The notes beneath the pieces were generated by a model. That model did not search any database. It worked only from the letters and a program-made list of their open reading frames with translations, and was not told the origin of the DNA. A stretch of DNA of 20,234 bases, from the IMG/VR virus record IMGVR_UViG_3300022074_000484, positions 1 to 20,234 of that record. One strand, written 5' to 3'. This DNA comes from a virus. Positions 4,082 to 13,572 of the stretch are shown here, piece by piece. How positions within the stretch are numbered: position 1 is the stretch's first letter; every line of letters begins with the position of its first letter. The position numbers and the translations under genes are program-made.

Positions 4082-4777
4082 ATGGATCCAGTAACTGCTA
4101 TGGCGACTGCTTCGGCAGCGTTTGGGGCTCTTAAAAAAGGTTTTGCGATAGGACGAGACATTGAGTCTATGGCCTCGGACTTGTCCAGATGGATGGGTGC
4201 ACTTTCAGACCTAGACCAAGCTGAAAAAGAAGCTAAGAACCCACCTATATTTAAAAAACTGTTTGCCGGAAAGAGCGTAGAGCAGGAGGCCGTAGAGGCT
4301 TTTGCTGCTAAGAAAAAAGCACAACAGCAACGCTACGAGCTACAGCAATGGATTAGTCTCACTATGGGTAAGTCCAAGTGGGATGAGCTTGTGCGTATGG
4401 AGGGCCAGATACGTAAGCGCAGGCAGGAGACCCTTTATGCTCAAAGGGAGCGGCGGCGCAAGTTTGTCGAGATTGTCGCTTGGGTCGTGATGATAGGCGT
4501 AGGCATAGCTGTTCTCACATCTTTTGTTCTTTTACTCAAGTCACACTCGGCAAATGCTGCGGAGCAGATGACGGTTTGCCGTAAGGTCAAGTGTGAGAAG
4601 CTTGAGGGCAAACAGATGGTCTGTATTTTCAAAGGTCAGAACAACACCATTGAGTCGATGTTTTTTGGGCAAGGAGAGTTCATACCCAATGAGTATCTTT
4701 GCAAGTATGACCCAAACGCTCGTAGGGACCGGACGATACAGGAGACTTTGAAGGAGATACGGGAGAGCCAGAAATGA
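4082..4777 (+). CDS. Single-span membrane protein with Cys-containing C-terminal domain
   Basis: 231 residues, function not recognised. The N-terminal half is helical and charged (residues 1-125, with a KKKAQQQRYELQQW stretch). A basic patch (about 122-127, RERRRK) precedes one hydrophobic span at about 130-152. After it comes a domain with cysteines at 166, 171, 181 and 207. By the positive-inside rule the N-terminus would be cytoplasmic and the Cys-containing domain periplasmic, where disulfides could form. Its stop overlaps the next start as ATGA at 4774-4777, so it is probably translationally coupled to the EF-hand membrane protein. The position beside holin and endolysin genes suggests a lysis or membrane role (a spanin-like role is only speculation). 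No good ribosome site precedes the ATG. Confidence 0.75.
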   Translation: MDPVTAMATASAAFGALKKGFAIGRDIESMASDLSRWMGALSDLDQAEKEAKNPPIFKKLFAGKSVEQEAVEAFAAKKKAQQQRYELQQWISLTMGKSKWDELVRMEGQIRKRRQETLYAQRERRRKFVEIVAWVVMIGVGIAVLTSFVLLLKSHSANAAEQMTVCRKVKCEKLEGKQMVCIFKGQNNTIESMFFGQGEFIPNEYLCKYDPNARRDRTIQETLKEIRESQK

Positions 4778-5091
4778 GCAAGAAGTTCCAAGAGGACACA
4801 GAGTACGCCAAGTATGATCTGGACGGGGATGGCGAGATCACAGACGAGGAGCTTGAACACGCCAAAGAGATACGTGAGACAGAAAGAGATTTGCGTAAAA
4901 GCTTGGCCCAGTTGCGTATGGCCCGGTTTACCTTGATAGGCATGGGTGTCTTTACTGCGGCTATGTTCACGCCTTGGATTAGTATTGAGCGCATAGAGGC
5001 GCTGAGCGAGATAAGCAATTTGTTTTACATCAGTGGAGCAGGCATCGTTGGGGCCTACATGGGCACCACCGCTTGGATGTCTCGGAAGTGA
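4774..5091 (+). CDS. Small EF-hand two-span membrane protein, lysis-block member
   Basis: 105 residues. Residues 15-26 form a canonical EF-hand calcium loop (D15, D17, D19, G20, I22, E26; sequence DLDGDGEITDEE). A charged helix (27-48) follows, then two hydrophobic spans at about 51-69 and 83-101. Two short spans and a charged N-terminus are compatible with a class II-like holin or holin regulator, but that is inference. It overlaps the upstream membrane gene by four bases (ATGA) and the downstream small gene by GTGA, so it belongs to a coupled set running into holin and endolysin. Only one EF loop is present; single loops usually bind calcium weakly unless paired by dimerisation. Confidence 0.8.
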   Translation: MSKKFQEDTEYAKYDLDGDGEITDEELEHAKEIRETERDLRKSLAQLRMARFTLIGMGVFTAAMFTPWISIERIEALSEISNLFYISGAGIVGAYMGTTAWMSRK

Positions 5092-5315
5092 TTGATGCGT
5101 TTCTTCTGCTGGTTTATCTCGGCACAGGAGATTTTCGGAAGCTAGAGTCCGGTAACATGTACTTTTATTCTGTTACAGAATGTAACTATTTCGCCAAACA
5201 AGTTTCAAAAAGGTATGGAAACTACAGTTATTCGCAACATATTGACCCTAAAGACAGAGTAACGGCATACTGTGTGCCGCGACAGGTAAACCCTGATACC
5301 ACAAAAGTTTACTGA
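5088..5315 (+). CDS. Small conserved-looking phage protein
   Basis: 75 residues from GTG at 5088, which overlaps the preceding stop as GTGA. A TTG at 5073 would add five residues but lies inside the upstream gene. The first 12 residues are hydrophobic (IDAFLLLVYLG), too short for a certain membrane span or signal peptide. They are followed by an aromatic-rich globular part with the pattern NMYFYSVTECNYFAKQVSKR and two cysteines. I recall similar short proteins in marine phage contigs but know of no function. The stop at 5313-5315 overlaps the next ATG (TGATG). Confidence 0.7.
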   Translation: MIDAFLLLVYLGTGDFRKLESGNMYFYSVTECNYFAKQVSKRYGNYSYSQHIDPKDRVTAYCVPRQVNPDTTKVY

Positions 5316-5593
5316 TGGATTTAGATCAGCGCATATCTTGGCTCAAAATGCGAATAGCAGAAGCCAAAGCAAAGATAGAGGTAAAGCAAAATGATGAGTC
5401 TACTAGGAAGCCTGTTGGGCTTCGGGACGAGCTTTCTGCCGGAAGTTCTGAATTTCTTCAAAGCGGGTCAGGAGCACAAGCAGAAGCTAGAAACAATGAA
5501 GCTGCAAGCAGAGTTGATGGAGAAACGCTCCGCTCTGAAATTGCAAGAATTAGACAAGCAAGCCGATATCGCCGAGACAAAAGGGATATATGA
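5315..5593 (+). CDS. Possible small gene overlapping the holin out of frame
   Basis: 92 codons in the frame two positions from the holin; the last about 200 bases lie inside the holin gene. The ATG is joined to the preceding stop (TGATG), the arrangement used throughout this cluster for coupled genes. The first 26 residues (MDLDQRISWLKMRIAEAKAK and onward) look like a charged amphipathic helix, while the overlapping part has a composition expected of an out-of-frame shadow. It could be a real overlapping lysis gene, or a short leader whose translation carries ribosomes to the holin start at 5391 or 5394. No ribosome site is evident. Confidence 0.4.
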   Translation: MDLDQRISWLKMRIAEAKAKIEVKQNDESTRKPVGLRDELSAGSSEFLQSGSGAQAEARNNEAASRVDGETLRSEIARIRQASRYRRDKRDI

Positions 5594-5849
5594 GCATGAT
5601 CGAAGCATTGACGCTGGCGGATTTGTCAACGCTCTTCGCGGCAGTGTGCGCCCTGTTATTACTTACGCCTTCTTCCTGATGTTCGCAGCCACTGAAGTGG
5701 TGATTATTGTGAAGGTCATGGAGACCGGGGGAGACTGGAAGGACGCGGTGGAACTAATGTGGACGCCCGAAACACAGGGTTTGTTTGCAGCCATCATGTC
5801 CTTCTGGTTCGGTAACCGAGCGGTTAGCAAATACATGAAAGGCAAGTAA
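5391..5849 (+). CDS. Holin, 3TM family
   Basis: 152 residues from ATG 5391 (a second ATG at 5394 is also possible). It would form the inner-membrane lesions that release the endolysin. The layout is a hydrophobic N-terminal segment (4-23), a charged coiled-coil-like stretch (27-66, KLETMKLQAELMEKRSALK), a span at about 87-109 and a last span at about 127-141 ending in FWFGNRAVSKYMK. That Phe-Trp-Phe-Gly ending is what I recall as typical of the gene-transfer-agent/phage 3TM holin family (PF11351-like). The stop overlaps the endolysin start (TAATG at 5847-5851). GAGG about ten bases upstream is a plausible ribosome site. Confidence 0.85.
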   Translation: MMSLLGSLLGFGTSFLPEVLNFFKAGQEHKQKLETMKLQAELMEKRSALKLQELDKQADIAETKGIYEHDRSIDAGGFVNALRGSVRPVITYAFFLMFAATEVVIIVKVMETGGDWKDAVELMWTPETQGLFAAIMSFWFGNRAVSKYMKGK

Positions 5850-6361
5850 TGGAATCCAATTTTTTCAAAAGCCTTGAGATGGTTCTCAAGCATGAGGGTG
5901 GTTTTGTGGATCATCCGGAAGATCCCGGGGGAGCCACCAACAAAGGCATCACCCACAAAACTTATTCTGACTTTCTAGGCAGGCCCTTGGAGGACGTGAA
6001 TGAGTTACGCAACATTCCTGATGAGCATGTAGAGTTGATCTATAAGGAGGGATATTGGGATAAAGTCAAAGGCGACCAGTTGCCCGGCGGGGTAGACTTT
6101 TGCATCTTTGATTGGAGCGTAAACAGTGGCCCGGGTAGGGCAGCAAAGGCTTTGCAGAAAGCCGTGATGGCCGCGCAGGATGGGGCGATTGGTCCCATGA
6201 CATTAGCTGCTGTATCGGAGTTTAATGCAGAGGACATCATTAAGTCTGTAACAGAAGAGCGTGAGGCGTTTTACAGAAGTCTCAAGACTTTTGACACTTT
6301 TGGTAAGGGCTGGTTGCGTCGAAACGAAGAAACACGTGACTTCTCATTAGAACTGATATAA
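5849..6361 (+). CDS. Endolysin, GH108 family N-acetylmuramidase
   Basis: 170 residues, the usual length for glycoside hydrolase 108 lysozymes, which cut the peptidoglycan sugar backbone. The hallmark HEGGF (15-19) holds the probable catalytic glutamate E16. DPGGATNKGIT (25-35) is the conserved follow-on motif, and the C-terminal part (about 85-165: CIFDWSVNSGPGRAAKALQK, IGPMTLAAV, FYRSL) matches the peptidoglycan-binding half of these proteins. There is no signal peptide, so export through the adjacent holin is expected. The start overlaps the holin stop (TAATG). Its position between portal and capsid genes rather than at a genome end is notable. Confidence 0.92.
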   Translation: MESNFFKSLEMVLKHEGGFVDHPEDPGGATNKGITHKTYSDFLGRPLEDVNELRNIPDEHVELIYKEGYWDKVKGDQLPGGVDFCIFDWSVNSGPGRAAKALQKAVMAAQDGAIGPMTLAAVSEFNAEDIIKSVTEEREAFYRSLKTFDTFGKGWLRRNEETRDFSLELI

Positions 6362-6393: not shown

Positions 6394-6591
6394 GTGGATG
6401 AAGTTTATTTTGCTGAAGCCGTGTTTCGTATCATACGGGAGCGGCGGCAAGCGGTATATGATTTGCTGATTTACGATAATGTGAACAGTATGGAGCAGTA
6501 TCGTGAGCTTATGGGGAACTTAAAGTCCCTAGATCACGTGGAACAGGAACTCAAGAGCCTGCTAGAAAAACAGGAGCAAAGTAGTGAATGA
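6394..6591 (+). CDS. Small helical protein, function unknown
   Basis: 65 residues from a GTG start; no in-frame ATG is available nearby, and GGAG at 6382-6385 is a fitting ribosome site. The sequence is strongly charged and probably all helical (VFRIIRERRQAVYDLL, then EQELKSLLEKQEQ). I recall similar short proteins in marine phage genomes, without a known role. Its stop overlaps the GTG of the co-chaperonin gene (8-base overlap), so the two are likely co-translated; it could be an assembly helper, but nothing in the sequence shows that. Confidence 0.7.
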   Translation: MDEVYFAEAVFRIIRERRQAVYDLLIYDNVNSMEQYRELMGNLKSLDHVEQELKSLLEKQEQSSE

Positions 6592-7033
6592 AGCGCAAGT
6601 TGACTTGTCAGACGTAGCAGAGGGTGTCGCAAACCTTTCAGCAGCATACAAAGATGCTACGGACAAAGTTTTAGACCCCGAGGCAATCGGCGGTTCCCTC
6701 CTAGATCGAATGCCAGATCCTACGGGCTGGCGTCTTTTGATTCTTCCCTATCGTGGAAAAGGTAAAACTGACGGCGGTATCTATCTCCCGGACAAAGTTG
6801 TCGAGGAGAACACGGTATCGACGCAGGTTGGATATGTCCTCAAAGTGGGGGCATTGGCGTATCAGGACTCTGAAAAGTTTCCAGCAGGGCCGTGGTGTGA
6901 ACAAGGAGACTGGGTAATGTTTGCTCGGTATTCGGGATCACGCTTCCGGATTGATGGGGGCGAAGTTCGTATTCTGAACGACGACGAAATCTTAGCCAAG
7001 ATTGGTGAACCCGAAGACATTCTTCATTTCTAG
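6584..7033 (+). CDS. GroES-like co-chaperonin (Cpn10 family)
   Basis: 149 residues, about 50 longer than bacterial GroES because of an N-terminal extension (1-44). The Cpn10 fold is recognised from GWRLLILPYRGKGKTDGGIYLPD (48-70), where KTDGGIYL corresponds to the mobile loop that docks on GroEL. Further support comes from GYVLKVG (83-89), GDWVMF (108-113), and a C-terminal strand and helix RILNDDEILAKI (129-140) close to the GroES ending. It would cap host GroEL, probably to fold the capsid protein encoded nearby, as T4 gp31 does (family knowledge; the client here is inferred). The GTG start overlaps the upstream stop; the gene lies just before the scaffold gene. Confidence 0.85.
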   Translation: MNEAQVDLSDVAEGVANLSAAYKDATDKVLDPEAIGGSLLDRMPDPTGWRLLILPYRGKGKTDGGIYLPDKVVEENTVSTQVGYVLKVGALAYQDSEKFPAGPWCEQGDWVMFARYSGSRFRIDGGEVRILNDDEILAKIGEPEDILHF

Positions 7034-12580: not shown

Positions 12581-12892
12581 ATGGCTAAAGAATTTATGAG
12601 TATGCAAGAGTATTACGCTGATCTTGTTGGCGGGGCAAAAGCCACACCAATGAAAAAAAAGGGTTTTGCTAACGGCGGTGCCGTCGGCAAAAAGAAGAAG
12701 AAGGGCTACGCTAATGGCGGGGCTGTAGGCATGAAGAAAAAAGGCATGGCCAAAGGTGGCAAAGTCCAGAAAATGGCTAATGGCGGCATGATGAAGAAAA
12801 AGGGCATGGCCAAAGGTGGCAAAGTCCAAAAGATGGCTAACGGGGGCATGATGAAGAAAAAGGGCATGGCTAAAGGCGGTAAGGTCAAGTAG
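12581..12892 (+). CDS. Lys/Gly repeat protein
   Basis: 103 residues. The first 25 (MAKEFMSMQEYYADLVGG and on) are ordinary; the rest is nearly all Lys, Gly, Ala, Met. It consists of KKKG...ANGGAVG elements, then a 20-residue repeat GMAKGGKVQKMANGGMMKKK, two full copies and a 9-residue third. There are no acidic residues after about residue 15, so it is strongly basic and probably disordered; nucleic-acid contact is inferred. AGGAG lies about 8 bases before the ATG. The next gene starts at GTG 12895, two bases after this stop. Copy-number change in the repeat would stay in frame. Confidence 0.7.
   Translation: MAKEFMSMQEYYADLVGGAKATPMKKKGFANGGAVGKKKKKGYANGGAVGMKKKGMAKGGKVQKMANGGMMKKKGMAKGGKVQKMANGGMMKKKGMAKGGKVK
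12743..12889 (+). repeat. 60-base in-frame tandem repeat
   Basis: Two full copies (12743-12802 and 12803-12862) plus a 27-base partial (12863-12889) of a 60-base unit coding 20 residues. The copies differ at only a few, mostly third-codon, positions. Confidence 0.9.
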
Positions 12893-12894
12893 TA

Positions 12895-13572
12895 GTGCCA
12901 TATCTTCAAAGCAACATTCCGCACTTTAAATGCTGGGTGCGGAGAGAGTACACATGCAACCATGCAAGATATCATGGTGAATTTTTACACGGCATGGCGA
13001 TAGCTGTTACAACGATGCCAAATCGTTGTTTGAGTTTTCAAATAATCTTTACGGGATGTGAAACAGACGACACAGAGGACGAAAATGTTCATGGTGGTGC
13101 CATGTGGGCAAGGATGCCGATTACGGCGTTGGTGGGTGACACGCCACTAGAGGAATGGCCGGATCCCATGCCGGTTCATGCGGCACAGCCGTGGGATTGC
13201 ATGTCTCATACTCATTCTGTGTATAGCTTAAACAGGGCGCAACCGTGTCCTTGGTTGGCAAAGATTGCAGGTCAGATGTTCCCGGCTAAATACTATTTCA
13301 CAGTAGACTATACAGAGAGTGAGATAGCGGACGACCCGGCGCAGCATAAACAAAGCCACGTTTTGGAGCTTTTAGATGCGGGTCAGTGGACAGGCAATAT
13401 CGTTGCTTTGCCAAACAATCGGGTGCGAGTAACTCATCCGGCGTGGTTTGAAACGGGACAAGGTGCTCCTGACTTTTTGCCTTCACAACACGTGCACTAT
13501 TCAAAATCTGATTTAGACTATACAATGGATGTCAATCAGATATTTGATAACCTATACGCGAAGGATGAGTAA
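12895..13572 (+). CDS. Conserved phage protein of unknown function
   Basis: 225 residues from GTG 12895. The opening MPYLQSNIPHFKCWVRREYT is one I recall from several marine phage contigs, as is the mid-protein AAQPWDCMSHTHSVYSLNRA; I know of no assigned function. It is globular with 5-6 cysteines and many aromatics, unlike the basic and beta-rich neighbours, and has no membrane span. AAGG at 12881-12884 is a weak ribosome site. Its TAA is joined to the next ATG (TAATG at 13570-13574), linking it to the neck-protein genes and suggesting a virion or assembly role by context. Confidence 0.7.
   Translation: MPYLQSNIPHFKCWVRREYTCNHARYHGEFLHGMAIAVTTMPNRCLSFQIIFTGCETDDTEDENVHGGAMWARMPITALVGDTPLEEWPDPMPVHAAQPWDCMSHTHSVYSLNRAQPCPWLAKIAGQMFPAKYYFTVDYTESEIADDPAQHKQSHVLELLDAGQWTGNIVALPNNRVRVTHPAWFETGQGAPDFLPSQHVHYSKSDLDYTMDVNQIFDNLYAKDE

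Follow-up and report, generated by a model that had tools for sequence, protein, structure and literature searches.

We describe a family of small viral membrane proteins in which a canonical EF-hand loop is joined to two membrane spans, and whose gene lies inside lysis cassettes in three large clade groups (the window, roseophage, and freshwater types). The member analyzed here is encoded by ORF 4774-5091 of the window, that is the whole stretch of 20,234 nucleotides (positions 1 to 20,234) of IMG/VR virus record IMGVR_UViG_3300022074_000484. The reading that we favor, and which in our estimation carries about half of the probability, is that of a lysis-associated holin-like or co-holin protein of the inner membrane with a Ca2+-responsive cytoplasmic head. 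Holins time the bursting of the host in most tailed phages, and the question of what triggers them is an old one. The initial annotation of this DNA, which had proposed a calcium-triggered lysis or superinfection switch, is as a whole partly supported by the present analysis. The gene and its parts are as follows.

4774..5091, + strand: EF-hand two-span membrane protein of 105 aa, PHROG 27150 (ORF, translation, PHROG match with E=2.8e-9, >580 viral relatives)
4816..4851, + strand: canonical EF-hand loop of 12 residues, residues 15-26, DLDGDGEITDEE (Pfam, profile, conservation)
4843..4965, + strand: long helix of residues 24-64, the EF-hand exit helix merging into span 1, with the span at about residues 52-70 (AlphaFold2; hydropathy peak 53-71)
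4984..5085, + strand: helix 71-104, Gly/Ala-rich span 2 (about residues 82-102) and then the start of a basic tail (SRK), predicted to be cytoplasmic (AlphaFold2; N-in/C-in charge pattern in 19/19 clusters)

The ORF on the + strand translates to MSKKFQEDTEYAKYDLDGDGEITDEELEHAKEIRETERDLRKSLAQLRMARFTLIGMGVFTAAMFTPWISIERIEALSEISNLFYISGAGIVGAYMGTTAWMSRK, and the ORF, its coordinates and all six loop residues named in the initial annotation (D15, D17, D19, G20, I22, and E26) proved correct. The loop, D15-L-D17-G-D19-G20-E-I22-T-D-E-E26, is canonical and fits the EF-hand superfamily, with ligands at positions 1, 3, 5, and 12, Gly at position 6 and a hydrophobic residue at position 8. Residues 12-29 of the single window sequence match Pfam EF-hand_5 (E=6e-4) and EF-hand_1 (E=1e-3); taken alone the window protein does not reach the Pfam gathering cut-off (19.6 vs 25.9 bits), which is expected of a short single EF-hand. 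A profile of 28 relatives matched the EF-hands of calmodulin with E=8e-10 over profile positions 6-43, which comprise the loop and the exit helix. The pattern D.[DN].DG.[ILV]...E occurs in 4 of the 4793 other genes of the fetched loci, one of the four being a second family copy in locus L404, and chance is thus a poor explanation for the loop.

At least 586 relatives were confirmed in the first scan of IMG/VR, and 21 out of 28 diverse relatives also match PHROG 27150, whose function is unknown. Isolates carrying the gene are the roseophages CRP-1, CRP-9, and CRP-207, the Sinorhizobium phages phiN3, phiM7, phiM12, and phiM19, the Methylophilales phage Melnitz, Limnohabitans phage DC31, and Stenotrophomonas phage DLP_6; in these the product is uniformly annotated as "hypothetical protein," and NCBIfam has no model for the EF-hand two-span family. 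Relatives were searched in IMG/VR with alignments of the hairpin only, so that the loop plays no part in choosing them. Among the best 80 matches of each search, a sample in which distant relatives are under-represented, 149 of 153 loci have a canonical loop upstream of the hairpin; as to the remainder, L382 has Asp at position 12, one locus is cut at the contig end, and L427 and L437 have lost the loop. Including L082 (phage DLP_6), three relatives keep the hairpin and lack the loop. No lysis gene was found near any of these three, and both L427 and DLP_6 lie in the gp51 slot, which is suggestive, on three cases, of loop loss away from lysis genes. Conservation of the ligands had been set beforehand as a test, and it is borne out by these counts. 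Within the window cluster (122 loci at least 65% identical) D15, D19, G20, and E26 are 100% conserved and D17 is conserved to 97%; the conserved residues are encoded by both or all of the available codons (minor-codon share 0.39-0.56), and loop positions 16, 21, and 23 are variable. Ligands that stay fixed while their codons and the intervening positions vary argue for purifying selection on the ligands. A chance EF-like motif is ruled out by the calmodulin profile match, the hairpin-only conservation, the codon variation, and the pattern count in neighboring genes.

The AlphaFold2 model of the protein (mean pLDDT 82, pTM 0.55, 124 sequences in the alignment) consists of a helix at residues 10-14, the loop, and two helices at residues 24-64 and 71-104. 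Helices flank the loop on both sides, the one on the entry side with low confidence (pLDDT 57-72), and span 1 continues the exit helix of the EF-hand without a break, an arrangement that in the model would be an obvious route for coupling the loop to the membrane hairpin. The loop had been placed directly before two membrane spans; the two spans stand, but about 25 residues of continuous helix intervene in the model. The second span of the window protein, Gly/Ala-rich and of low hydrophobicity, is missed at a Kyte-Doolittle cut-off of 1.3, and the same region is a confident helix in AlphaFold2. In 19 of 19 clusters the segment between the spans carries 0-1 Lys/Arg and 1-4 Asp/Glu, and the segment before the spans and the tail are basic; by the positive-inside rule this pattern puts the EF-hand, like the N and C termini, on the cytoplasmic side. 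The EF-hand loop is accordingly predicted on the side needed by the earlier idea that membrane damage is sensed as Ca2+ entry. Two spans with an N-in/C-in orientation, to which both the charge pattern of the 19 clusters and the model point, are the topology of class II holins. No significant fold relative of the protein was found in PDB or BFVD by Foldseek.

The neighbors of the gene in the window form a lysis cassette.

4082..4777, + strand: partner protein, helical, with one span and an extra Cys-containing C-terminal beta domain (PHROG 32327, neighbor counts, model, 4-nt overlap with the EF-hand gene)
5088..5315, + strand: 75-aa protein with a hydrophobic N-terminus and Cys residues (next gene in 48 window-cluster loci)
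5391..5849, + strand: likely holin, PHROG 6637 (59% identical to a Pelagibacter phage Mosig gene; the slot holds GTA_holin_3TM in relatives)
5849..6361, + strand: endolysin, Glyco_hydro_108 and PG_binding_3 (Pfam E=3e-28; PHROG 315 endolysin E=1.5e-49)

The gene is overlapped by both of its neighbors, as had been claimed: the stop of the upstream gene shares the ATGA at 4774-4777, and the downstream ORF overlaps the stop of the EF-hand gene by 4 nt when started from the GTG at 5088, which is backed by relatives (the program list gave a TTG at 5073). The GH108 endolysin lies directly downstream of the holin-like gene, and both are downstream of the EF-hand gene as stated in the initial annotation; the count of three genes given there hinges on the doubtful ORF 5315-5593, so that the holin-like gene is two or three genes away. 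About 200 nt of this ORF run out of frame across the holin-like gene, and the N-terminus of its product weakly matches DUF1192 (E=0.001); it could be a genuine short gene or a frame open by chance. The slot equivalent to 5391-5849 is occupied in locus L008 by GTA_holin_3TM (E=2e-21). Identity of the 5391-5849 protein to its counterpart in the Pelagibacter myophage Mosig extends over 136 residues and is much closer than that to other phage matches, which suggests exchange between very different phages. For the 75-aa protein no family match was obtained. The partner family is large, is found in many phages, and is the commonest upstream neighbor of the EF-hand gene in the window, roseophage, and freshwater clades, and other roseophages have a partner gene with no recognized EF-hand gene adjoining. 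The N-terminus of the partner protein is family-specific, the Cys-containing beta domain follows the span and is added in the window clade, and the protein has no significant structure match in PDB. Phage CRP-6 (L343, 3468-3677) encodes, between the partner gene and a PHROG 2524 holin-like gene and directly following the former, a 69-aa protein (PHROG 10198, of unknown function) with two spans and no EF-hand; this is the slot held in other phages by the EF-hand protein. Outside the cassette, the window encodes a GroES-like co-chaperonin between the lysis and head genes (6584-7033; Cpn10 E=2.4e-11), which is common in window-clade relatives, a protein of Lys-, Gly-, and Met-rich repeats (12581-12892; AKGGKVQKMANGGMMKKKGM), and a protein matching PHROG 3704, labeled ferredoxin (12895-13572; E=4e-29).

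Membership of the EF-hand gene in lysis cassettes, read from the window by the initial annotation, holds in several clades, the cassette labels being derived from simple gene calling and from families spread from a few annotated seeds. In the window cluster a lysis gene lies within four genes of the EF-hand gene in 84 of 121 loci, and in 77 of these 121 the same distance also takes in a distinct 3TM-type holin gene close to the endolysin. The holin slot of window-clade relatives can hold GTA_holin_3TM and their endolysin is GH24 or GH108; the EF-hand gene is constant in this clade while holin and endolysin swap. In CRP-1 and CRP-9 the EF-hand gene sits in the holin slot and is followed by an M15 endolysin and then by a spanin. 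The endolysin was found within four genes of the EF-hand gene in 61/66 loci of the CRP-9-type cluster, and the M15 endolysin (PHROG 465, E=7e-53) and the spanin are both downstream within five genes in 40 of the 61 usable loci. This spanin is a lipoprotein with a C-terminal span, an architecture described for spanins in the cobavirus paper (PMC6775973), and its match to NCBIfam spanin2_3 (E=7e-11) is below cut-off. No holin is mentioned in the papers on CRP-1 and CRP-9. Of the annotated CRP-1 proteins examined, the EF-hand protein alone shows two strong hydropathy peaks. The early region of CRP-9 additionally codes for a two-span protein of 54 aa, and a one-span protein of 71 aa in this phage gives a weak holin match (PHROG 608, E=0.007). 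In the DC31-type clusters an Rz-like spanin (PHROG 2466) and an endolysin follow the EF-hand gene in 60 of 65 loci. When loci were weighted by cluster, the nearest lysis gene was at distance one from the EF-hand gene in 4.5 of 13 clusters, vs 1.3 clusters for the remaining genes of these loci, a descriptive comparison of few clusters that is biased towards the EF-hand gene because the lysis seeds were picked after its neighbors had been seen.

For the clades with CRP-1-type cassettes no single explanation does better than a holin role, in view of the position in the holin-endolysin-spanin series, the two spans with N-in/C-in topology, and the lack of another recognized holin there; as judged from sequence and gene order, the EF-hand protein itself is most likely the holin in the CRP-1/CRP-9 and DC31-type cassettes. 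In the window phage there is a separate holin-like gene, so that hole formation there need not fall to the EF-hand protein, which is better called a co-holin or a regulator of holin timing, the more likely role in this phage. Across these settings we would put hole formation by the EF-hand protein at about even. A step further, the protein could be an accessory regulator which never forms a hole, its hairpin binding the true holin or the partner protein so as to delay or synchronize lysis, with Ca2+ as the antiholin-like release signal. A second small hairpin protein in one operon with a separate 3TM-type holin, as in the 77 window-cluster loci, would fit such an antiholin or co-holin, and the 4-nt gene overlaps suggest coupled translation; however, the CRP-1/CRP-9 and DC31-type cassettes are without another recognized holin and hence offer nothing to regulate, and the hairpin has no homology to the 3TM holin, which leaves this possibility rather doubtful. 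Derivation of the hairpin from the neighboring 3TM holin is not supported, since comparison of the hairpin with the 3TM holin profile by hhalign gave 7.5% probability and a faint alignment of the last hairpin that is not significant. A holin/antiholin pair of paralogues within the family was likewise rejected, the family being single-copy in 22 of the 23 records searched. The one record with two copies, L404 (9436 bases), has two different EF-hand two-span genes 1.7 kb apart, one after the partner gene and the other directly after a 3TM-type holin, and these are a possible holin/antiholin pair.

The vicinity of the holin, another element of the initial annotation, is found in several cassettes but is not general, as T4-like phages mostly place the EF-hand gene by gp51 and the tape-measure gene. 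In the Melnitz cluster a tape-measure gene lies within four genes in 43, gp51 in 20, and lysis genes in 9 of 98 loci, and in Melnitz, phiN3, phiM12, and DLP_6 the family gene lies between gp51 and the tape-measure gene. The two cyanophages that were checked have gp51 directly before the next large gene and the slot empty, and the EF-hand gene therefore looks inserted there in the T4-like phages. This slot would suit a membrane protein of infection or of the tail, for genome entry or as a partner of the tape measure, which is found near lysis genes since both are late. We consider this improbable, because in phages of the window, roseophage, and freshwater types the gene shares compact lysis operons with endolysin or spanins, and because even the loci with Melnitz-like proteins L156 (GH19 endolysin, i-spanin, o-spanin, XhlA-like, EF-hand gene) and L159 (i-spanin, o-spanin, EF-hand gene) adjoin spanins and not tail genes. 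CRP-9, which carries the gene, has a short tail (PMC8528129), so that the gene is not bound to a long-tail tape measure. A fixed tail function fits most T4-like loci and is contradicted by the other clades. Adjacency to endolysin or spanin, as expected of a class II holin, is seen in the window, roseophage, and freshwater clusters and is mostly absent in the T4-like clusters. The small size, the two spans, and the place beside the tape-measure gene in T4-like phages would also be compatible with superinfection exclusion in the manner of T4 Imm, the protein blocking incoming DNA at the inner membrane and perhaps sensing Ca2+ at the injection site. Exclusion genes are usually expressed early, though, most clades have the EF-hand gene in a lysis cassette, and no exclusion family in PHROGs was matched, and we regard exclusion as very improbable. 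In DLP_6 (L082, 4433-6595) the tape-measure-like gene adjoining the loop-less homolog is annotated as lysozyme, and by eye a stretch of it resembles the GH108 endolysin of the window.

Returning to the holin-like or co-holin reading, the N-terminal EF-hand would lie in the cytoplasm and its exit helix would lead into the two-helix hairpin, with N and C termini inside as in the class II topology. The loop very likely binds Ca2+, given its Glu at position 12, a residue that in EF-hand loops favors Ca2+ over Mg2+. Cytosolic free Ca2+ stays below micromolar levels in living cells, so that a loop on the inside would hold no Ca2+ as long as the membrane is sound and would fill upon leakage. The most likely role of the loop would be that Ca2+ loading alters the assembly of the hairpin, and filling on a membrane leak could render the collapse cooperative, in which case Ca2+ would promote lysis; the sign may also be the reverse, with Ca2+ restraining assembly. 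Control of assembly by Ca2+, of either sign, is plausible. The most specific form of the proposal, i.e., a widespread family of Ca2+-gated holins whose empty loop fills at the first leak, drives cooperative assembly of the hairpins and couples the timing of lysis to membrane integrity and to outside Ca2+, is in our view unlikely as it stands. We give similarly little weight to a purely structural EF-hand, a constitutive divalent cation steadying the head of a holin-like protein with no switching, which competes with the Ca2+-control part only. Single unpaired EF-hands often bind Ca2+ weakly, and the loop is retained in freshwater, soil, and marine phages alike; but the predicted cytoplasmic site, with its very low free Ca2+, makes constitutive loading unlikely, the invariant Glu at position 12 is a Ca2+-type residue, and affinity could rise if loops paired through oligomers. 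The argument from the high Ca2+ of seawater made in the initial annotation has been dropped: Limnohabitans (freshwater) and Sinorhizobium (soil) phages retain the loop, so that a seawater-specific role is not needed and no particular outside Ca2+ level is implied. The family suggests that some phages tune lysis with calcium, and if it is Ca2+-gated the conserved loop would be a chemical handle on the holin trigger. It also supplies a candidate holin where none had been recognized, e.g., in the CRP-1/CRP-9 roseophages and in Melnitz-type methylophages, the Melnitz genome paper naming no holin and proposing a curli pore as pinholin analog (PMC9004378).

With respect to known systems, no homology to known holins was detected, the best holin matches being PHROG 2073 (E=0.098) and PHROG 565 (E=0.016), each by single members. 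No EF-hand holin or lysis-cassette EF-hand was found in a search covering 5.39 million open-access papers; literature matches for EF-hand and holin appear from their titles to concern lysins, and the single match for EF-hand and lysis cassette, phage S144, has the EF-hand words confined to an appendix table on other genes. The novelty of holin-like proteins with a cytoplasmic EF-hand is provisional, since the search was confined to open papers. Like the class II holins, e.g., S21 of phage 21, the EF-hand protein is small and has two spans, one of them Gly/Ala-rich, with both termini predicted inside, and in several clades its gene stands in lysis cassettes next to endolysin and spanin; unlike them it has an N-terminal EF-hand head, and no sequence similarity was detected. 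To our knowledge class II holins do not carry such a head. In PBSX of Bacillus XhlA precedes the two-span XhlB, and the EF-hand gene of L156 is immediately preceded by a one-span gene resembling XhlA (Pfam XhlA E=2.6e-4, below cut-off); similarity to XhlB was not detected, however, other EF-hand clades are without a recognized XhlA, and XhlB has no EF-hand as far as we know. GTA_holin_3TM and the PHROG 2524/6637-type proteins share cassettes with the EF-hand gene but have three spans and no EF-hand and are encoded by a separate gene in the window clade, and the window protein, with two spans and not three, has no Pfam match to GTA_holin_3TM (PF11351). In contrast to the EF-hands of calmodulin type, the one in the window is single, unpaired, and fused to a membrane hairpin. 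The EF-hand-containing endolysins also have an EF-hand in a phage lysis gene, the Ca2+ site being there in a soluble wall-degrading enzyme and here in a membrane protein.
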